From assembly GCA_021323945.1 (NCBI GenBank), contig JAJPKA010000003.1:62001-126000 (forward strand): DNA of 64,000 nucleotides, read 5' to 3'. Under the pieces are notes generated by a model that saw only the letters and a list, made by a program, of their open reading frames with translations, did no database searches and was not told the origin of the DNA. The DNA is from Pseudomonadota bacterium (lineage in GTDB: Bacteria; Desulfobacterota; Binatia; Binatales; Binataceae). The position numbers and the translations under genes are program-made. This document shows, piece after piece, positions 18,822-27,212 of the stretch. Position 1 is the first letter of the stretch. The number at the start of each line of letters is the position of its first letter.

Positions 18822-20984
18822 TTGCGCGGCTGCGCTGGTGAAACCTCGCTGCTTGCGCCCGACCTGTATCTCAACCGTGAATTGACCTGGCTAAGCTTTA
18901 ACCGCCGCGTTTTGGCTGAAGCCGAGGATGAACGCAATCCCCTTTTGGAGAGGTTGAAGTTCCTGGCAATTTCGGCCTCTAACCTCGACGAATTCTTCAT
19001 GAAGCGCATCGGCGGACTTAAGCAACAAGCCAGCAGTGGCGTCACGATGTTGACAATCGATGGCCGCACCCCGCAGGCCCAGATCGCCGAATGCCTTGAG
19101 GTTATCCGAGACCAGGAACGACAACAACGCACGATCCTCGCAATACTTTTAGCCGAATTGAAAGCGCATGGGATTGCCCTGCGTAGTTACCATGAGCTCT
19201 CCGCACCGCAGAAGCTCGCGCTACGTGAACATTATCAGCGCAACATTTTCCCGCTGGTGACACCGCTGGCGATCGACCCGGCACATCCTTTTCCCTTCGT
19301 TTCCAACTTGTCGCTTAATCTTCTGGTGACGGTCCGAGCTCCAACTGAGGAACCGCCCGGCGAGGCGGCTGCCGCCGAATCCGACGCGGCACTGGCCCGG
19401 ATCAAGGTGCCGGTCGGAAACGGGGTGCCACGCTTCGTGCGCATCGAGGGCAACCAGTTCGTATTGCTCGAGCAGGTGATCGCTCACAATCTCGACCTGT
19501 TGTTCCCGCAAGCCGAAATCGTCAAATGGGAACTGTTCCGGGTCTGTCGTAACGCCAACGCCGAACGCAACGAGGAAGAAGCTGATGACCTGCTCGCGCT
19601 GATCGAGAGCGAATTGCGCGACCGCAAAATGGCTCCGATCGTCCGGCTTGAAGTGGAGCAGGGAATAGAACCGCTCCATCGCGGGATGCTAGCGGCTGAG
19701 CTGGGGCTCGATGAGCAAACCGAGGTGTTCGAGACCGAGGGAATGCTGGCGCTACGGGATCTGATGGAATTGGCCGAGCTACAGATTCCCAAACTGCATT
19801 ATCTACCACATCACCCGCTTGACCATCCGCGGCTTCAGGAGCATCGCAATATCTTTCACATTATCCGCGAAGCCGGCTCGATTCTCCTGCGTCATCCATA
19901 TGACTCGTACGCGACCTCGGTCGAGCGCCTTCTGCGTGAAGCCAGCCAGGACCCCAAGGTGCTCGCCATCAAGATGACAATTTATCGCACTTCCGCCGAC
20001 GCTCGCCTGCTAAGTTATCTGATCGAAGCTGCCCGCAATGGCAAGCAGGTAGCAGTGGTCATCGAACTCAAGGCCCGTTTCGACGAAGAGGCGAACATCC
20101 ACTTTGCCAGTTATCTGGAAGATTTCGGCATCCATGTGACTTATGGCGTGCTCGGCTTGAAAACGCACTGTAAAGTCATCCTGGTGGTTCGGCGGGATTA
20201 CAACGGTCTGCGCCGCTATGCGCACATCGGCACCGGTAACTATCATGCCGAAACGGCGCGCCAGTATGCAGACTTCGGACTTCTCACAGCCGACGACCAG
20301 ATCGGCCATGATTTGACTGAGCTATTTAACTTTCTTACGACCGGCTACCGGCCTAAGCGCGCTTATCAGAAGTTGTTGCCGGCGCCAGCAATGCTTAAGC
20401 AGGCGCTGCTCGAAAAAATCGAGCGCGAAATCAACCTTAAATCCCACAATCGCGATTACCAAGCGCTCGTGCAATTCAAAGTGAATGCCCTTGAAGATGG
20501 CGATATCACTCGCGCGCTTTATCGCGCGTCAATGGCCGGTGTTAAAGTAGACCTAATCATACGTGATACCTGCCGGCTGCGGCCCGGTATTCCACACCTG
20601 TCGGATAACGTCAGGGTGGTCAGCATCGTTGGGCGCTTCCTCGAGCACGGGCGCATCTACTATTTTCATAACGGCGGCAACGAGGAGTACCTGATTGGCT
20701 CGGCCGACGCGATGGCGCGGAATCTCGACAGTCGGGTTGAAGTCCTGGCTCCCGTCGAGGATCCGCTGCTACGGAAAGAGCTCCGCACGGTTTTGGAATG
20801 TCAGCTCAAGCCCAACCGCTGCCAGTGGGAAATGCAGCCGGACGGTACTTATGTCAGGAGCACAGCCGAAGAGAGCTGTCAACAGCAGCTCATCGACCTG
20901 GTGGAACGGGCCTATCAAAGACATCATCGTCGGCGGCGCGGATTTGCTCGTCGCCTTCCACGGAATGCTGTCGTCGAACACTAA
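18822..20984 (+). CDS. ppk1: Polyphosphate kinase 1
   Basis: A 720-residue polyphosphate kinase that transfers the gamma phosphate of ATP to a growing polyphosphate chain. The N-domain has PDLYLNRELTWLSFNRRVL near residue 13. The two phospholipase-D-like domains carry GLKTHCKV with H449, equivalent to the autophosphorylated His435 of E. coli, HIGTGNYH around 468-475, and RFLEHGRIYYF with H609. The start is a TTG at 18822. The frame is open upstream to 18720 but holds no better start, and the TTG gives the family-typical N-terminus. It stands alone, without ppx nearby. It runs convergently toward the cation-transport module at 21038-25346. Confidence 0.95.
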   Translation: MRGCAGETSLLAPDLYLNRELTWLSFNRRVLAEAEDERNPLLERLKFLAISASNLDEFFMKRIGGLKQQASSGVTMLTIDGRTPQAQIAECLEVIRDQERQQRTILAILLAELKAHGIALRSYHELSAPQKLALREHYQRNIFPLVTPLAIDPAHPFPFVSNLSLNLLVTVRAPTEEPPGEAAAAESDAALARIKVPVGNGVPRFVRIEGNQFVLLEQVIAHNLDLLFPQAEIVKWELFRVCRNANAERNEEEADDLLALIESELRDRKMAPIVRLEVEQGIEPLHRGMLAAELGLDEQTEVFETEGMLALRDLMELAELQIPKLHYLPHHPLDHPRLQEHRNIFHIIREAGSILLRHPYDSYATSVERLLREASQDPKVLAIKMTIYRTSADARLLSYLIEAARNGKQVAVVIELKARFDEEANIHFASYLEDFGIHVTYGVLGLKTHCKVILVVRRDYNGLRRYAHIGTGNYHAETARQYADFGLLTADDQIGHDLTELFNFLTTGYRPKRAYQKLLPAPAMLKQALLEKIEREINLKSHNRDYQALVQFKVNALEDGDITRALYRASMAGVKVDLIIRDTCRLRPGIPHLSDNVRVVSIVGRFLEHGRIYYFHNGGNEEYLIGSADAMARNLDSRVEVLAPVEDPLLRKELRTVLECQLKPNRCQWEMQPDGTYVRSTAEESCQQQLIDLVERAYQRHHRRRRGFARRLPRNAVVEH

Positions 20985-21037: not shown

Positions 21038-21604
21038 CTAGTCACCTTCGAGCTGTGCTAATTCAGCGGTAATGCCCAGCTCCGTCGGCGTTGGAGCGTG
21101 CAGGCCCAGGAAGGAATTGAACGCGAAGATCAACAAGGTCAGCCACAAAGGCGTAGTCGAGGAATACCGCAACGCCAGCAGTCCAAGGATGCCTACGCCG
21201 AAGGGCAGAATAAACTTCAGATCGACCTCGTTATCAGTCGCCACCCGAATTTCATGATCCAGCTGCCTGAAAAATGCATCAATCCGCCGGGCGGCCAGAG
21301 AACGGCCTCGCACTCGAGAGCGACGACCGGAACGGTAGTGAGTCTGATACGAATCCGTCAGGGCGATTGGCGCAGCTGAGCCACCAAGGACCGCCTCCAA
21401 CGCCTTCAGGCTTCGATAATGCTGTGGCGAGTATTGAATAAGTATACTACCGGTAATTGGATTGAACTCGACCTGAGTTATTCCGGGGGCTCGAGCAATC
21501 GCTGAGCTGATTTCGCGAAGCTCATCGGTTTCACCCTTCGCAGCAGGTATCCGGAGCCGCAAACGCCCAGGAAGATGATGATGTACATAAGCATCTAGTG
21601 CCAT
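21038..21604 (-). CDS. Small HMA-like domain membrane protein, P-type ATPase accessory
   Basis: A 188-residue protein. Residues 5-75 fold like a heavy-metal-associated domain but have no CxxC; the place is taken by HHHLPGRLRLRIP. About residues 125-165 hold two hydrophobic segments (FILPFGVGILGLLAL and LWLTLLIFAFNSFLGL), so it should sit in the inner membrane with the domain in the cytoplasm. The ATG at 21604 follows GGGGG by about 6 nt; an in-frame TTG at 21622 is less likely. The LPGRxRxR block recurs at the N-terminus of the P-type ATPase encoded upstream. This suggests a paired domain used in transport regulation. The metal is unknown; the family is close to Pfam HMA_2. Confidence 0.72.
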   Translation of the reverse strand: MALDAYVHHHLPGRLRLRIPAAKGETDELREISSAIARAPGITQVEFNPITGSILIQYSPQHYRSLKALEAVLGGSAAPIALTDSYQTHYRSGRRSRVRGRSLAARRIDAFFRQLDHEIRVATDNEVDLKFILPFGVGILGLLALRYSSTTPLWLTLLIFAFNSFLGLHAPTPTELGITAELAQLEGD

Positions 21605-21748
21605 TCGCAACCCCCAGGCCAAACCGCTTTATCGCGTAGCTATTTGCCTTTTTCTGGCGCCCAGAGCAGCGCACGTGATCAGCCACTCCAGCACCTTTTG
21701 CCTCCCATCGGTCGCCGGCACTCAGGTCCAGGGACGAGCGGCGATACT

Positions 21749-22123
21749 CTACTGAATCGGACCGCTCTCGGCACGAGCCTCTGCGACCATATCAGAGATG
21801 GTTTCGGAAGCCTCAGACGCCATCTCGCGAGCCATCGTCGCGGCGCTATAGCCGGCCTTGATCGCGGTCTTAAGCAGCGGACGAATGGTCCCGCCGACGA
21901 GATCCGGCAACCAGTTCGAGGCCATTGCGATCCCGGCCCCAACTGCCATACCCACCAGTAGCTCGGGTTGGATCAGTGCGGCGATGCCAATGAGAGCACC
22001 GGTAGTCAGCAAAGGTCCGCTGACGGGTCTGTGGAAGGCCTGACGCCCTCCCGTCGAAGACTCTCGATGTTCGCTGGTTCGATGTTCTGCGTTGTGCCCA
22101 GAACCACTATCTTCGCGCGCCAT
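21749..22123 (-). CDS. Small membrane protein, DUF5132-like
   Basis: A 124-residue protein. The ATG at 22123 has AGGAGG at 22135-22130 with a 6-nt spacer, which decides it over the ATG at 22177. The N-terminal 35 residues are polar and low in complexity. They are followed by a Gly/Ala-rich hydrophobic hairpin at about 40-75 (LLTTGALIGIAALI, LLVGMAVGAGIAMA), then an amphipathic C-terminal helix rich in Ala, Glu and Met. This resembles DUF5132 (YtxH-like) proteins. It lies between the HMA-like protein and the P-type ATPase on the same strand with short gaps, so it probably serves the same transport unit. The function is unknown. Confidence 0.66.
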   Translation of the reverse strand: MAREDSGSGHNAEHRTSEHRESSTGGRQAFHRPVSGPLLTTGALIGIAALIQPELLVGMAVGAGIAMASNWLPDLVGGTIRPLLKTAIKAGYSAATMAREMASEASETISDMVAEARAESGPIQ

Positions 22124-22129
22124 CTCTTG

Positions 22130-22135
22130 CCTCCT
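22130..22135 (-). promoter_or_regulatory. Strong Shine-Dalgarno site fixing ATG 22123
   Basis: AGGAGG on the minus strand sits 6 nt before ATG 22123. It removes 18 residues from the longest open frame of the DUF5132-like gene. Confidence 0.6.
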
Positions 22136-22211
22136 GGCTAACCGAGCAGTCGTTTTACTTGCTCGCTGCCTTTTCATCGAACTACACAGTCACCGGCTGG
22201 TGAGCAGACGG

Positions 22212-25200
22212 TCATATTGCAACCCAACTCCCAGAGCGAGTCTCGAGCTTAGGTTCAAGCGCAGCCTCTTCCTGCGGTTTTCGCAAGGAGCTTGAAGCAC
22301 CATTGAAGGTCAATAATTTGACGCCTTCGGTCGCGAGGAACGGCAGCATCGCCCCCGCTCCAACTATTACGGCGTCGTCAATCGCAATTGGAGTCAAGCC
22401 GAGTACATCGCGCAAATGCGGAACCAAAAGAGTCAGGGCCTGAAGTCCGTAGGATATCACTAAGGCAGCCGTAAGATAATGATTGGATGGTAGCCGACGA
22501 CCGCCAAGCACGCTATGGCTCGCCGAGCGACAACTTACAGCATGCAACAGCTGGCTCGAAGTGAGGGCGGTAAATGCCAAGGTGCTGGCCCGCGCACCCG
22601 CCCCATACCTGGCCAGACCGTAGCCGTAAACCGCCAAAGCCCCTCCAGATAGCGCCGCCGACTCAGCGACGATGCGGCCAAGGTCATCATTGTTCACTAC
22701 AGGTTCGCTTGGATCGCGCGGTGGTGCGGACATGACGTCCGGTTCTGGAGGTTCCAGGGCAAGCGCCAGACCCGGCAGGATATCAGAAATCAAATTGATC
22801 CAAAGAAGCTGCATAGCGTTGAGTGGATGACCAAGACCGGTAGCCAAAGCGATGAATACCACCATTATTTCGCTGAAGTTGGTCGCCAGCAGAAAATGCA
22901 ACGATTTCCGGATGTTGCTGTAGATCGCACGCCCCTGCCCGATTGCGACGAGCATCGTCTGCAAATCGTCATTCTCAAGCACCACGTCAGCGACGTCGCG
23001 GGCAGCGTCTGTACCCGTACTTCCCATTGCTATACCGATATCGGCTGCCTTAAGGGCGGGGCTGTCGTTAATCCCATCGCCCGTCATCGCCACAACATGA
23101 CCGCCACGTTGCAGGGCCTGCACGATTTGCAGCTTGTTGGCCGGGCTGACGCGCGCGAAGACCTGCGCGTGGCGCGAAATATCGGCAACCCCAATCTGTT
23201 CCAAATCCGCAGGACCGCTGATCTCATACACGCGCAACTGCCCGTTGCGGCTCAATTCCAATGCTCTGCCGACCGCTGAAGCGGTCAGCGGCTGGTCGCC
23301 GGTAATCATGATGGTATCGATACCGGCCTGATGGAATGCCTGGATAGCCTCACGAACGCCTTGGCGGATGGGATCCGCCATGGCGACCATGCCCAGCCAT
23401 ACCAGGTCACGCTCAATCTGGCTGCGCCCCTCGGCAGGCAACTCGCGATAGGCGATCCCGAGCACGCGCAGGGCTGCACCAGCCATTCGGTCGTTTTCCG
23501 CGAGAATTCGCAAACGGTCGGCCTCACTAATCGGGACTCGTCCACTGTCGCGGATTTGCCACCTGCACATCGCCAAGACTTCACTCGGGCTACCTTTGAC
23601 CGCCACTAGGAATGGTCCCCTGAACGTCTTCCGGAAGCGGGGCTTCACTCGGTGAAGTGTGCACATATAGTTGCGCTGTTCGGCACGCCTGATGGTTCTG
23701 AGTGTGGGGTACTGAGTGCGGAGCGCGATCGGATCGATTCCCAGGTGAAGCGCCAGCTCAATGAGCGCATTTTCAGTCGCGGAGCCGCTGACCTTGTGGC
23801 TGCCGGCGTATCGCTCTATGGTGCTTTCGCTACATAAGACGCAGATTTCGGCCAGCTTCCGGAAGCCATCATTTAGCGCGGGCGGCTGTTCTTCGAGGTT
23901 GAATTCTTCGCCTGGAAAATGTAATTGCTGCTCCCCACAGCAAACAATCTCCACTTTCATTCGGTTCAGCGTAAGCGTGCCGGTTTTGTCCAGACAAACC
24001 GTCTTTACGCAGCCGAGCGTCTCGACCGCTTCCAACTTGCGGATTATGACCCCGTGCCGGCGCATCTTGACGATGCCCAAGGCCAAGGTGGACGCGGCGA
24101 CTACCGGCAAGCCTTCGGGCACGGACGCCACCGCCAGCGAGATTGCGGTCTCCAGCATTTGCACCAGGCCGTAGCCCTGGAACAGCCCGATCAGTAAGAT
24201 CAAGGTGCAGATACCGCTGCAGATGATTACCAATTGCCGACCGAGTGCGGCTAGCTGCCGCTCCATTGGTGTTTCTGGCGCTTTGGTCTCACCTGCCAAG
24301 CGATGAATCAGTCCTAACTCCGTCTGCGGCCCCGTTGCGACGACAATGGCAAGCCCGCTCCCACCGGTCACTCGGGTTCCCATATAGACCATGTTCTTTC
24401 GCTGCCCGAGGGGGAGAAACGGATTGTTGAGGGTCTGTGCACTCTTGGCGAGCGGCAGGCCTTCACCGGTCAAGGCCGATTCGTCCACCGTTAGTTCTTC
24501 AGCTTCGATAATCCTCGCGTCGGCGCAGACGTACGTCCCCGGCTGAAGCACGATGACGTCACCCGGCACAACGCGTTCGGACGCAATCTGGTGCAGTTTT
24601 CCGTCACGGACCACCAGCGCGGTAGGCTCGACGAAGCGCTTGAGCGAACCGATTAAGCTTTCTGATCGACTCTCCGTAAAAAATCCCAGTGCTGCATTGA
24701 TCGCCAGCACCCCACCAATTGCGATTGCATCGGAGAGCCCGCCGGTGAACAACGAGATGGTTGCTGCGGCAAGCAACAATGCCGTCGGCATCGAGTCGAA
24801 CTGATCACGTAGGATGGTCCAGCCGGAGCGTGGTCGAAGCTCGGGAAGACGATTGGGGCCAAAAGTCTTGAAGCGCTCCGTGGCGTCCAGCTCAGTCAGT
24901 CCCGTCTCCGAGCTGTCGAACTGTTTAATTACGTGGTCGGCACCGCTCAGGTGCCAACCGTTTTCGGCGTTTTTGCTGACCCGGTTGACGAACTCATCAA
25001 GCCTGTCCGGGGACAGCGGCTTTTGACTGGTGCGGCCAGCAATCGCAGCAGCATTCGAGCCCGAGTTTAGTGGCCTTTGCTGAGTAGAAGAAGGTAAAGC
25101 TCCTATTATCTCTTCCAGCAGTAGAGCAATTTGGTCGGGTTCGATCGCCGAATCAAACTCGACCAGCACACTAGCCGTTAAGGTATTAGCTACTACTCGA

Positions 25201-25346
25201 TGGATGTGAGGACGTAATAACAACTCCCGCTCTATGGCGCGCTTTAAAGCGGGACGATGGTATAGGCCGCGAACCCGAAAACGCACCCGACCCGGGAGAA
25301 CATGCACGGGCTCAGCGGGTGCACTTAGAGATTGCAGGTCCGCCAA
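22212..25346 (-). CDS. Cation-translocating P-type ATPase, Ca2+-type, with N-terminal HMA-like domain
   Basis: A 1044-residue P-type ATPase. Residues 12-85 form an HMA-like domain without CxxC (VLPGRVRFRVRG). The cation ATPase N-domain and first membrane hairpin follow at 135-225. The actuator loop has LTGEG at 292-296, and the catalytic DKTGTLT has the phosphorylated D453. TGDGINDSPALKAADIG marks the hinge. M4 reads SVPEGLP at 408-414 and M6 contains NLISD, both typical of P2-type Ca2+ pumps and unlike the CPC of heavy-metal pumps. Calcium or another hard divalent cation is therefore likely, moved out of the cytoplasm. The TTG start at 25346 follows AGGAGA by about 5 nt. It leads a unit with two small membrane proteins downstream. 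Confidence 0.88.
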   Translation of the reverse strand: MADLQSLSAPAEPVHVLPGRVRFRVRGLYHRPALKRAIERELLLRPHIHRVVANTLTASVLVEFDSAIEPDQIALLLEEIIGALPSSTQQRPLNSGSNAAAIAGRTSQKPLSPDRLDEFVNRVSKNAENGWHLSGADHVIKQFDSSETGLTELDATERFKTFGPNRLPELRPRSGWTILRDQFDSMPTALLLAAATISLFTGGLSDAIAIGGVLAINAALGFFTESRSESLIGSLKRFVEPTALVVRDGKLHQIASERVVPGDVIVLQPGTYVCADARIIEAEELTVDESALTGEGLPLAKSAQTLNNPFLPLGQRKNMVYMGTRVTGGSGLAIVVATGPQTELGLIHRLAGETKAPETPMERQLAALGRQLVIICSGICTLILLIGLFQGYGLVQMLETAISLAVASVPEGLPVVAASTLALGIVKMRRHGVIIRKLEAVETLGCVKTVCLDKTGTLTLNRMKVEIVCCGEQQLHFPGEEFNLEEQPPALNDGFRKLAEICVLCSESTIERYAGSHKVSGSATENALIELALHLGIDPIALRTQYPTLRTIRRAEQRNYMCTLHRVKPRFRKTFRGPFLVAVKGSPSEVLAMCRWQIRDSGRVPISEADRLRILAENDRMAGAALRVLGIAYRELPAEGRSQIERDLVWLGMVAMADPIRQGVREAIQAFHQAGIDTIMITGDQPLTASAVGRALELSRNGQLRVYEISGPADLEQIGVADISRHAQVFARVSPANKLQIVQALQRGGHVVAMTGDGINDSPALKAADIGIAMGSTGTDAARDVADVVLENDDLQTMLVAIGQGRAIYSNIRKSLHFLLATNFSEIMVVFIALATGLGHPLNAMQLLWINLISDILPGLALALEPPEPDVMSAPPRDPSEPVVNNDDLGRIVAESAALSGGALAVYGYGLARYGAGARASTLAFTALTSSQLLHAVSCRSASHSVLGGRRLPSNHYLTAALVISYGLQALTLLVPHLRDVLGLTPIAIDDAVIVGAGAMLPFLATEGVKLLTFNGASSSLRKPQEEAALEPKLETRSGSWVAI

Positions 25347-25562
25347 GCATCTCTCCTGTTTATCAAGAGTCCTGACCAGGGCAAGCTACACGTCCCAGTG
25401 GCCACTTGAGCATAACAGAATCGAGCCGTGCATAGAAATCTATAGGCGCGCTGCCTTCTCAGGCCTTCTGGCGAGATACGTGTCAAGAACGGTTGCGCTG
25501 AACTGCGGGCGCGCGCTATTCCTGCAAGCAGTGCGCGCTGGGTGCCGCCGGGCGCGAGACTC

Positions 25563-25569
25563 AGGAGGA
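25563..25569 (+). promoter_or_regulatory. Strong Shine-Dalgarno site fixing ATG 25578
   Basis: AGGAGGA lies 8 nt before ATG 25578. It rules out the 12-residue longer form beginning at 25542. Confidence 0.65.
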
Positions 25570-25577
25570 CATTTCAC

Positions 25578-27212
25578 ATGGGGACTTTACGCGGTGAAGA
25601 GATAATCGCGCGTTGTTTCCAACAGGAGGGCGTCGACACCATCTTTTTCATGATGGGCGGGCCGACCAGTGGGACTGCCGGCGCCTGCCTCGATTTGGGC
25701 ATGAAGGGCATCTACGTTCGCCACGAGCAGGCCGCCGCGATGATGGCACACGCATATTCGCGCGTCACAGGTAAACCCGGAATTTGTATTGCACCGATGG
25801 GACCCGGCGTCGCCAACCTCGTCACCGGCCTGGCCAATGCACAGGCCGACGCGTCACCGGTAATCGCAATCGGCGGCTCTGCCCCCATGCGGGGATGGAC
25901 GCTTGATACCTTTCAGGAAATGGATCAAGTACCAATGATGCGGCCGATCGTGAAGTCAGCCTACCGGGTTGATCTTGCTTATCGCATACCCGAATACATT
26001 GCTATTGCGTTTCGCGAGGCACTTGACGGAAAGCGTGGTCCGGTCTACCTGGACTTGCCGGCCGATATCCTGGCTGCGAAAGTCGACGAGGACAAGATTA
26101 ACTGGGTCAGAGGAAAGTATCGGACCGATGCTCGTCCTGCCGGCGATCCTGCGCTCATTCGCCAGGCCATTGACTTGTTGGCCGAAGCGCGCAAACCCCT
26201 GATCTTGACCGGCAGCGGCGTTTTATGGTCGCGAGCGGAAGAGGCTTTGCGGGCCTTCGTCGATACTACAGGTATCCCGTTCTTTACGACACCGCAGGGG
26301 CGTGGTGTAGTTGCCGAAGATCATCCACGATCGTTTCCAGGTGCTCGCTCGACGGCATTTCGGGAGGCGGATGTGGTGTTGGTGATCGGGGCTCGCGCGA
26401 ATTCGATGCTGTCCTTTCTGCGCCCGCCGCGCTTTTCGCCCACTGCCAAGTTTATCAACGTCAATGTCGATGGCCGTGAGATTGGCCATAACCGCGACGT
26501 TGAAATCGGCATCATTGGCGACGCCAAAATGGTACTGGAACAACTGACCGCTGAAGCGAAAGGACGCTTTAATCCCAACGAAGAGACACCCTGGGTATCT
26601 CAGCTTTCGGCCAAGCATCGGTCGAACCTCGAGCGTAACTCTCCTTTGCTCCACTCAGATCAGGTACCGATTCATCCATTGCGCCTCTGCAATGAGGTCA
26701 AAGATATGATCTCGCGCGATACCATCCTGGTGGTCGACGGCCACGAGATCCTGAATTTCGCACGCCAATCGATTCCAATCTACCAGCCACGCCACAGCCT
26801 CAATGCTGGTCCGCATGGCTGTATGGGTGTTGGCATTCCCTTCGGAATCGGAGCCAAGGCGGCGGCCCCCGACAAACCGGTGGTGGTGCTGAGCGGAGAC
26901 GGCGCCTTTGGATGGAACGGTATGGAAATGGACACGGCCATTCGTCACAAACTCAACATCACGGTGGTCGTATCAAATAATGCCGGATTCACGTCGCGCA
27001 AAACTGGTGGCAACGTTGGTCGCGACCTGGGTTACCAGCGCTATGACAAGCTAGTAGAAGCTCTCGGTGGTTACGGCGAGTTCGTTGAAAAACCCGCGGA
27101 CATTCGACCTGCGCTCGAACGCGCGATGAACAGCGGCAAGCCGTCTTTGGTCAACGTTTGTACCGATCCAGACGCGCAAGCCACCACAGACATGGGATTC
27201 TCAGGATATTGA
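25578..27212 (+). CDS. Thiamine diphosphate-dependent enzyme, acetolactate synthase / oxalyl-CoA decarboxylase family
   Basis: A 544-residue ThDP enzyme with the three usual domains. The Pyr domain carries the catalytic Glu in YVRHEQAAAMMAHAYSR at about residue 50. The middle domain starts near 190. The PP domain has the cofactor motif GDGAFGWNGMEMDTA, ending in the SNN of VVVSNNAGFT. GGSAPM after the Pyr domain and the short C-terminus are nearer to the oxalyl-CoA decarboxylase/2-hydroxyacyl-CoA lyase side than to biosynthetic IlvB. No IlvN small subunit follows. It probably cleaves or joins a 2-oxo or 2-hydroxyacyl substrate. It is followed by GNAT, SDR and methyltransferase genes in the same direction. 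Confidence 0.86.
   Translation: MGTLRGEEIIARCFQQEGVDTIFFMMGGPTSGTAGACLDLGMKGIYVRHEQAAAMMAHAYSRVTGKPGICIAPMGPGVANLVTGLANAQADASPVIAIGGSAPMRGWTLDTFQEMDQVPMMRPIVKSAYRVDLAYRIPEYIAIAFREALDGKRGPVYLDLPADILAAKVDEDKINWVRGKYRTDARPAGDPALIRQAIDLLAEARKPLILTGSGVLWSRAEEALRAFVDTTGIPFFTTPQGRGVVAEDHPRSFPGARSTAFREADVVLVIGARANSMLSFLRPPRFSPTAKFINVNVDGREIGHNRDVEIGIIGDAKMVLEQLTAEAKGRFNPNEETPWVSQLSAKHRSNLERNSPLLHSDQVPIHPLRLCNEVKDMISRDTILVVDGHEILNFARQSIPIYQPRHSLNAGPHGCMGVGIPFGIGAKAAAPDKPVVVLSGDGAFGWNGMEMDTAIRHKLNITVVVSNNAGFTSRKTGGNVGRDLGYQRYDKLVEALGGYGEFVEKPADIRPALERAMNSGKPSLVNVCTDPDAQATTDMGFSGY

Follow-up and report, generated by a model that had tools for sequence, protein, structure and literature searches.

A conserved gene neighbourhood in Binataceae and other bacteria joins a Ca2+-type P-type ATPase to HMA_2 and DUF5132 membrane proteins and resembles PacL-like platforms

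In mycobacteria, PacL1 scaffolds and stabilises the pump CtpC within membrane patches, and conserved Lys and Gly residues of the PacL transmembrane segment are required for cluster assembly; the DUF6110 family is described as PacL-like and encoded alongside P1B6 pumps (PMC9374683, PMC13043812). Ferrosome gene clusters comprise FezA and FezB (PMC12574912, PMC10979944). Here we describe a locus of a Binataceae genome (assembly GCA_021323945.1, contig JAJPKA010000003.1) in which a P-type ATPase is encoded together with a DUF5132 protein and an HMA_2 protein. It lies in a stretch of 64,000 nucleotides that we refer to as the window (G000:C17:62001-126000 in our genome set), with all three genes on the minus strand. 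Our best reading of the locus is a PacL-like platform built around a Ca2+-type ATPase. That the genes form one functional module, in which a P-type ATPase for a hard cation, likeliest Ca2+, has its own membrane-clustering apparatus, we put at an even chance.

A first-pass annotation, made from the sequence alone, had grouped three genes at 21038-25346 as a cation module, and both the coordinates, which are exact, and Pfam matches for each family bear out this set. Read along the minus strand, the order is pump, then DUF5132 gene, then HMA_2 gene:

22212..25346, minus strand: type II (Ca2+-type) P-type ATPase with an N-terminal HMA_2/GRxR domain, 1044 amino acids (aa); TTG start behind AGGAG
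21749..22177, minus strand: DUF5132 protein, 142 aa as called; likely start at ATG 22123, giving 124 aa
21767..21883, minus strand: DUF5132 Pfam domain, from the Pfam match
21038..21622, minus strand: HMA_2 protein, 194 aa as called, with a predicted C-terminal transmembrane hairpin; likely start at ATG 21604

To simplify the presentation below, we will refer to these proteins as the pump, the DUF5132 protein and the small HMA_2 protein. Against Pfam gathering cut-offs of 30 bits for HMA_2 (PF19991) and 25 bits for DUF5132 (PF17195), the small HMA_2 protein scores 60.8 bits and the DUF5132 protein 31 bits; the HMA_2 match of the pump (aa 14-72) reaches 32.6 bits, barely above the cut-off, and the pump also matches Cation_ATPase_N, E1-E2_ATPase and Cation_ATPase_C. 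The likely start of the DUF5132 gene, ATG 22123, is preceded by AGGAGG; ATG 21604 of the HMA_2 gene has no clear ribosome site and is favoured by comparison with its relative in locus L004. With these shortened starts the intergenic gaps are 88 and 144 bases, and it is therefore plausible that the three genes share one transcript. The whole genome holds two HMA_2 places and one DUF5132 place at E <= 0.001, all in the module, and three E1-E2 ATPase places. Composition gives no sign of foreign origin, the G+C content of the three genes being 0.55-0.60 and that of the window 0.57. A peptide search for named relatives of the pump found a single locus, L004, from a Binataceae metagenome-assembled genome, in which the pump is 68% identical and the gene order is kept; L115, in genome G342 of the window's genus, probably represents the same locus as L004.

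The pump, the DUF5132 protein and the small HMA_2 protein constitute a conserved neighbourhood. We searched 297 genomes of the phylum with HMA_2 and DUF5132 profiles at E 0.001: HMA_2 occurs in 49 genomes (135 places) and DUF5132 in 21 (25 places), and all 21 are among the 49, a co-occurrence with a hypergeometric probability of 5e-19 when the relatedness of the genomes is ignored. All but one of the DUF5132 places (24/25) have an HMA_2 frame shorter than 300 aa no more than 1 kb away, where random placement in 3.2-Mb genomes would lead one to expect 0.05; the nearest such frame is on the same strand in 21/25, and in 20/25 it is there less than 200 bases away. A long HMA_2-bearing frame (at least 950 aa) is found within 6 kb of 20/25 DUF5132 places. 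As for the other five, two are on contigs without a long frame (G248:C13 and G113:C54, the latter of 3.3 kb), two are in G276:C47, which does encode a PEGL pump (L051:9218-12283), its HMA_2 domain being unmatched at E 0.001, and at the fifth (G257:C1) no long HMA_2 frame was seen. The first-pass annotation had named as a possible objection that the families might not be neighbours elsewhere; as they adjoin in other genomes, this objection falls away.

Seen from the pump, DUF5132 is present within 6 kb of 20/23 HMA_2-bearing frames of at least 950 aa and of 2/35 frames of 600-949 aa. The 20 include one frame of PASL type, which adjoins the PEGL cluster of G184; the three long frames that lack DUF5132 comprise a PVGF type, a PSGL type and, on a contig of 4.2 kb, a PEGL type. 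These counts bear on an alternative, namely that the pump acts alone with its HMA_2 domain as a cis regulator (autoinhibitory or lipid-sensing), and that the small HMA_2 and DUF5132 proteins are co-regulated membrane-stress proteins and not its partners. In keeping with this, some pumps of the window's class have no DUF5132 in the stretch covered, and 17 of the 35 frames of P1B size (600-949 aa) have a small HMA_2 gene within 6 kb. However, the regular presence of DUF5132 beside the long pump frames and the tight same-strand pairing of DUF5132 with small HMA_2 genes are not what would be expected of non-partners, and we regard this alternative as possible though somewhat doubtful.

The families are also united on a megaplasmid of the alphaproteobacterium Microvirga, which carries two DUF5132 genes, a pump and an HMA_2 protein. 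Two tandem genes that appear CYTH-like by eye (L082:3722-5333) lie just upstream of the DUF5132 pair and the pump. A plasmid search with the window's pump returned 342 records, and among the best 30 only the Microvirga match starts inside the HMA_2 domain. The same kind of search with the small HMA_2 protein returned one Vibrio record (62 residues matched), and with the Microvirga DUF5132 protein one further record, from Sinorhizobium chiapasense, where a phmmer scan of 16 kb with the proteins of the window detected neither a pump nor an HMA_2 protein.

HMA_2 and DUF5132 had been called uncharacterised families. This stands in so far as our literature search, which had most subscription journals outside its coverage, found no paper naming DUF5132; it does not stand in that the DUF5132 profile matches PacL-like DUF6110, and DUF5132 is thus no longer without relatives. 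In an alignment of 24 sequences, each matching Pfam DUF5132 at E <= 5, the family has a Gly-rich hydrophobic stretch followed by RPLxK..IKGG and then an acidic, Ala-rich helix. Comparison of this alignment by hhalign with a narrow DUF6110 alignment (five sequences of one genus, three of which exceed the Pfam cut-off) gave a score of 38.3, E 2e-6 and a probability of 89% over 44 columns; the best of 150 column shuffles scored 16.5 and the reversed control 13.6. DUF6110 itself is matched in 7/297 genomes of the phylum. The profile relation suggests that DUF5132 is a member of a PacL/DUF6110-like family, for which a clustering role is a proposal.

The likeness to the mycobacterial PacL/CtpC platform (DUF1490 with a P1B-ATPase) extends to the gene set, since here too a small transmembrane protein with an acidic, Ala-rich helix accompanies a P-type ATPase. 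The two differ in the pump, which is P1B in PacL/CtpC and type II (PEGLP) here, and the free HMA_2 membrane protein is extra relative to that platform. CtpC presumably has an N-domain similar to that of the pump. Among the matches listed in a literature search for scaffolded P-type ATPases, the PacL papers alone were relevant.

The likely substrate of the pump is suggested by its motifs, which we located by aligning 22 pumps:

24105..24119, minus strand: PEGLP of M4 (aa 410-414), with E411 at a Ca2+ ligand position; from the alignment
23976..23990, minus strand: DKTGT phosphorylation motif (aa 453-457); from the alignment
22866..22883, minus strand: TNFSEI of M5 (aa 822-827); N823 and E826 invariant in the 22 pumps
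22782..22796, minus strand: NLISD of M6 (aa 851-855); N851 and D855 invariant in the 22 pumps
22530..22553, minus strand: QLLHAVSC of M8 (aa 932-939); Q932, H935 and C939 invariant in the 22 pumps

PEGLP and NLISD are thus present and CPC is absent from the pump sequence, as had been noted at first pass. E411, N823, E826, N851 and D855, the ligand set of type IIA Ca2+-ATPases, are invariant in 22/22 pumps, and among solved structures LMCA1, SPCA1 and SERCA are the best matches. We take E411 to be equivalent to SERCA E309, and by SERCA numbering site II of the pump would be complete and site I retained in part. The ligand motifs are the same as in the type IIA pumps LMCA1 (lmo0841 of Listeria), SPCA1 and SERCA, with two differences from LMCA1 chain 6zhf, which has Ala at the M5 position where the pump has Glu, and Arg in M8 where the aligned residue is Q932. 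The N-terminal HMA_2 domain sets the pump apart from all three. The claim that the pump serves a hard divalent cation is thereby supported, in that the conserved ligands fit such an ion; Ca2+ is our best guess for the substrate, and other hard cations are possible. Pumps that are type II-like and GRxR-headed also occur with PASL, PSGL or PVGF in M4 (L042:1958-4966, L059:8160-11303, L069:2896-5910), and these consequently lack the Glu that is the Ca2+ ligand at this place.

The pump and the small HMA_2 protein share a domain whose features are as follows:

25098..25316, minus strand: HMA-like domain without Cys at the N terminus of the pump (aa 11-83); from the AlphaFold model and Pfam HMA_2
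25275..25298, minus strand: LPGRVRFR motif of the pump (aa 17-24); from the pump alignment
21353..21598, minus strand: HMA-like domain without Cys of the small HMA_2 protein (aa 9-90); from the AlphaFold model
21551..21574, minus strand: LPGRLRLR motif of the small HMA_2 protein (aa 17-24), forming the turn that joins an extra strand, b0, to b1; from the alignment and the AlphaFold model
21101..21220, minus strand: predicted transmembrane hairpin of the small HMA_2 protein (aa 135-174); from the AlphaFold model and the sequence

The AlphaFold model of the small HMA_2 protein (mean predicted local distance difference test, pLDDT, 86; predicted template modelling score, pTM, 0.49) has the ferredoxin-like b-a-b-b-a-b fold of classical HMA domains, with b0 at 9-17, a PG turn, b1 at 20-24, a helix at 32-43, b2 at 48-54, b3 at 59-64, a second helix at 72-80 and b4 at 86-90. 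That of the pump domain (mean pLDDT 77.5, pTM 0.68) is similar, with b0 at 11-17, b1 at 20-25, a1 at 32-43, b2 at 48-54, b3 at 59-64 and a2 at 70-83, and with the last strand, b4, missing. Foldseek searches with the small-protein model gave HMA domains as 7 of the 10 top matches, with a best E of 6e-3 and no match at E 0.001. MerP and CopZ superpose with Z 6.6, but Z extends to 7.0 overall with unrelated ferredoxin-like folds tied, and values of 6-7 are common to other ferredoxin-like folds, so that the structural match speaks for fold class only; a profile search of solved structures with the small HMA_2 alignment likewise returned weak matches only. MerP and CopZ superpose only from residue 18 or 19 of the small-protein model onward, and b0 is therefore an addition to the HMA core with LPGR as its turn.

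This placement modifies the earlier idea that LPGRxRxR replaces the metal-binding CxxC of the domain. It is correct that CxxC is absent and that the motif is common to both proteins, but the motif lies on the extra hairpin, about 10-13 residues before the CxxC place. The latter, put at aa ~30-33 by the Cys positions that we take to form the MerP metal site, reads G-E-T-D in the small HMA_2 protein and H-R-P-A in the pump. According to the models, then, the metal site has been lost and, apart from this, a basic hairpin has been gained. CxxC is found in 0/20 aligned small HMA_2 proteins and 0/22 pumps; a lone Cys occurs in the loop in 1/20 and 3/22 respectively, and in neither of the window's two proteins. 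G19, R20 and R22 (G-R-x-R) are invariant in 22/22 pumps; R22 is likewise fully conserved across the 20 small proteins, in which H15, G19 and R20 reach 90%. The presence of an HMA-like domain in both proteins might be taken to mean that the free protein passes the cation to the HMA_2 domain of the pump, in the manner of Cu chaperones. However, CxxC is absent and the residues that are conserved instead are basic and ill-suited to cations; we have set this explanation aside as very improbable.

The CoBaHMA family, which includes calcyanin and is attributed to Gaschignard (2024), reportedly has an HMA fold without the Cys site, basic residues and a proposed contact with anionic lipids. The family is defined by an HMA fold that lacks CxxC, by basic residues that are conserved and by a strand added at the N terminus, and the domain described here fits that description. 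Our literature search found no paper on CoBaHMA, and passages of two calcyanin papers make no mention of such a module; a search for HMA_2 together with P-type ATPases gave plant HMA2 papers among the matches listed.

A plausible mechanism for a PacL-like platform with a Ca2+-type pump is that the DUF5132 protein is anchored in the membrane by its Gly-rich segment, exposing the acidic Glu/Ala helix, and acts as a scaffold that collects the pump and stabilises it in patches. The basic GRxR hairpin would dock the HMA-like domain either to an anionic surface, such as lipid headgroups or a polyanion, or to its twin domain in the other protein, and the free HMA_2 protein, itself anchored in the membrane, might then draw the pump into the patch or relieve its inhibition. 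The outcome would be a regulated membrane platform that exports a hard cation.

Several observations weigh against this model. The Pfam DUF6110 model matches 0/24 of the DUF5132 proteins at E <= 5, the C-terminal metal-binding motif reported for PacL was not found by eye in the DUF5132 alignment, and a structure profile search gave no solved relative of DUF5132 (best E 0.6). The pump is below every type-specific NCBIfam cut-off (597 bits against 798 for the PMR1 type and 518 against 703 for the SERCA type), and Ca2+ is for this reason not certain. In the window's class, HMA_2 occurs in 15/148 genomes; our reading covered 11 stretches, taken from eight of those genomes (G308, G318, G319, G333, G334, G342, G351 and G357), and DUF5132 was searched for within those stretches. 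The intact trio was present there only in G342, of the window's genus, and no DUF5132 was detected in 19 kb around the pumps of G333, G334 and G351. The free HMA_2 protein of G334 is encoded about 45 kb from the pump, and in G319 the DUF5132-HMA_2 pair and the pump are on different contigs. What the analysis shows is the family identity of the three proteins, their neighbourhood, the similar predicted topology of the two HMA-like domains, the conserved cation ligands and the profile relation between DUF5132 and DUF6110; Ca2+ as the substrate, the clustering, the binding of lipid or other anions and the contact between the domains are proposals. Taken as a whole, the interpretation offered at first pass, of a regulated hard-cation pump, is partly supported.

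The pump loci elsewhere commonly include a further gene. A paralogue of S-adenosylmethionine (SAM) synthetase (MetK) lies 3' of the PEGL pump on the same strand in 18/22 aligned pump loci, or 19/22 with a copy missed by the open reading frame filter (G057:C255:12162-12599). Examples are found in L037-L057 and L060 (such as L040:2254-3456 and L045:4556-5749); the paralogue overlaps the pump by 4 bases in six loci and is separated from it by 531-748 bases in four. It is absent beside the pump in the window, L004 and L049, and in the class stretches it accompanies 1/6 PEGL pumps (L120). Counting fragments, S-AdoMet_synt_C occurs in two or three places in 17/21 DUF5132 genomes and in one place each in G000, G073, G096 and G257; that of G257 is the cluster copy and that of G000 is unlinked. 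We aligned 16 of the 18 paralogues (two truncated copies were excluded) with 20 other methionine adenosyltransferase frames from the same genomes, some of them truncated. The latter have 151 columns that are constant to 95% or more; the paralogues keep 71 of these, and a further 43 are altered in 90% or more of the paralogue sequences. Changed positions include those that we take to be the methionine contacts E55, D118 and K269 of E. coli MetK, and kept positions those presumed to be the ATP/triphosphate residues H14, D16, K17, R244, K245 and K265.

The frequency of this paralogue, and the failure of the pump to reach any type-specific cut-off, are compatible with a non-metal substrate (K+, Na+, H+ or an organic cation) that the paralogue supplies or senses. 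We consider this improbable because the pumps do not vary in the ligand residues of Ca2+-ATPases and because LMCA1, SPCA1 and SERCA are the best matches of known structure.

A second recurrent neighbour is a protein of about 240 aa built of 11-residue amphipathic repeats (helical period 11/3), encoded upstream of the pump in 10/23 DUF5132 loci (for example L040:6602-7297, L045:8902-9651 and L053:5604-6296, with eight others). The best period is 3.66-3.67 in 11/11 copies, and one of two copies scanned matches Pfam Senescence below the cut-off. Such repeats are reminiscent of perilipin- or synuclein-type membrane coats. The window has no 11-residue-repeat protein.

The immediate neighbour of the module in the window is a polyphosphate kinase gene:

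18822..20984, plus strand: polyphosphate kinase (ppk1), convergent with the HMA_2 gene and 53 bases from it

A polyphosphate link through ppk1 was considered and not retained: among the loci read, the adjacency is seen only in L004/L115, of the window's genus, and a single-sequence PPK profile did not find ppk1 in the other class stretches or in L037-L076. Being confined to one genus, the adjacency is counted as chance or shared descent, and ppk1 is probably not part of the module. On the other side, a thiamine-pyrophosphate enzyme (window 25542-27212) is divergent from the pump and flanks the module in L004/L115 too.

Judged from sequence, a comparable layout exists with another, P1B6-like class of pump. 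Among 13 loci with DYSC, DFSC or DFGC pumps (L058, L061-L063, L065-L067 and L070-L075), chosen because HMA_2 matched there, 12 have a DUF6110- or DUF5132-like protein, six of these resting on DUF5132 scores of 15-22 bits, often together with a free HMA_2 protein. A FeoA-like gene is present in 5/13, four of them from one genus (G076, G109, G165 and G190). Loci L061, L062, L065 and L066, all of one genus, combine a FeoA-like gene, DUF6110, a DYSCA/HN P1B6-type pump with a GRMRVR domain and two free HMA_2 proteins, and appear ferrosome-like. FezA belongs to DUF6110 and FezB to the P1B6 pumps, and the likeness to ferrosome clusters is that in this phylum DYSC-type P1B6-like pumps with a GRxR domain adjoin DUF6110, HMA_2 and FeoA genes; the window's pump, being type II, differs from the presumed P1B6 type of the ferrosome pump. 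Equating the HMA_2 protein with FezC was rejected, FezC being a cytochrome.

These layouts invite the explanation that the module makes or fills a membrane-bounded store inside the cell in which a hard cation is kept with phosphate, a calcium counterpart of the ferrosome. The similar arrangement beside FeoA and DUF6110 of DYSC-type pumps, the kind we take ferrosomes to use, would agree with it, as would the repeat protein and the neighbours suggestive of phosphate chemistry (the SAM-synthetase paralogue, the Microvirga CYTH-like pair seen by eye and the window's ppk1). However, the window has neither the repeat protein nor the paralogue, the ppk1 adjacency does not extend beyond its genus, and PacL platforms show that such a scaffold needs no organelle. 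We therefore think a store unlikely. Slightly less likely still is an elaborated form, a ferrosome-like or platform-type compartment in which a Ca2+-type ATPase took over the P1B scaffold and HMA-like adaptor to store Ca2+-phosphate tied to triphosphate chemistry, joined by the SAM-synthetase paralogue in most aligned lineages and by a membrane coat of 11-residue repeats in some.

On the reading that we prefer, a PacL-like platform with a Ca2+-type pump, two uncharacterised families, HMA_2 with a transmembrane hairpin and DUF5132, gain a link to a testable job, and the pump-clustering scaffolds of zinc and iron pumps may serve calcium-type pumps too. If this is true, some bacterial Ca2+ pumps would operate as parts of ordered platforms in the membrane, and the SAM-synthetase paralogue that recurs beside them would suggest an unknown tie between cation pumping and ATP/triphosphate chemistry.

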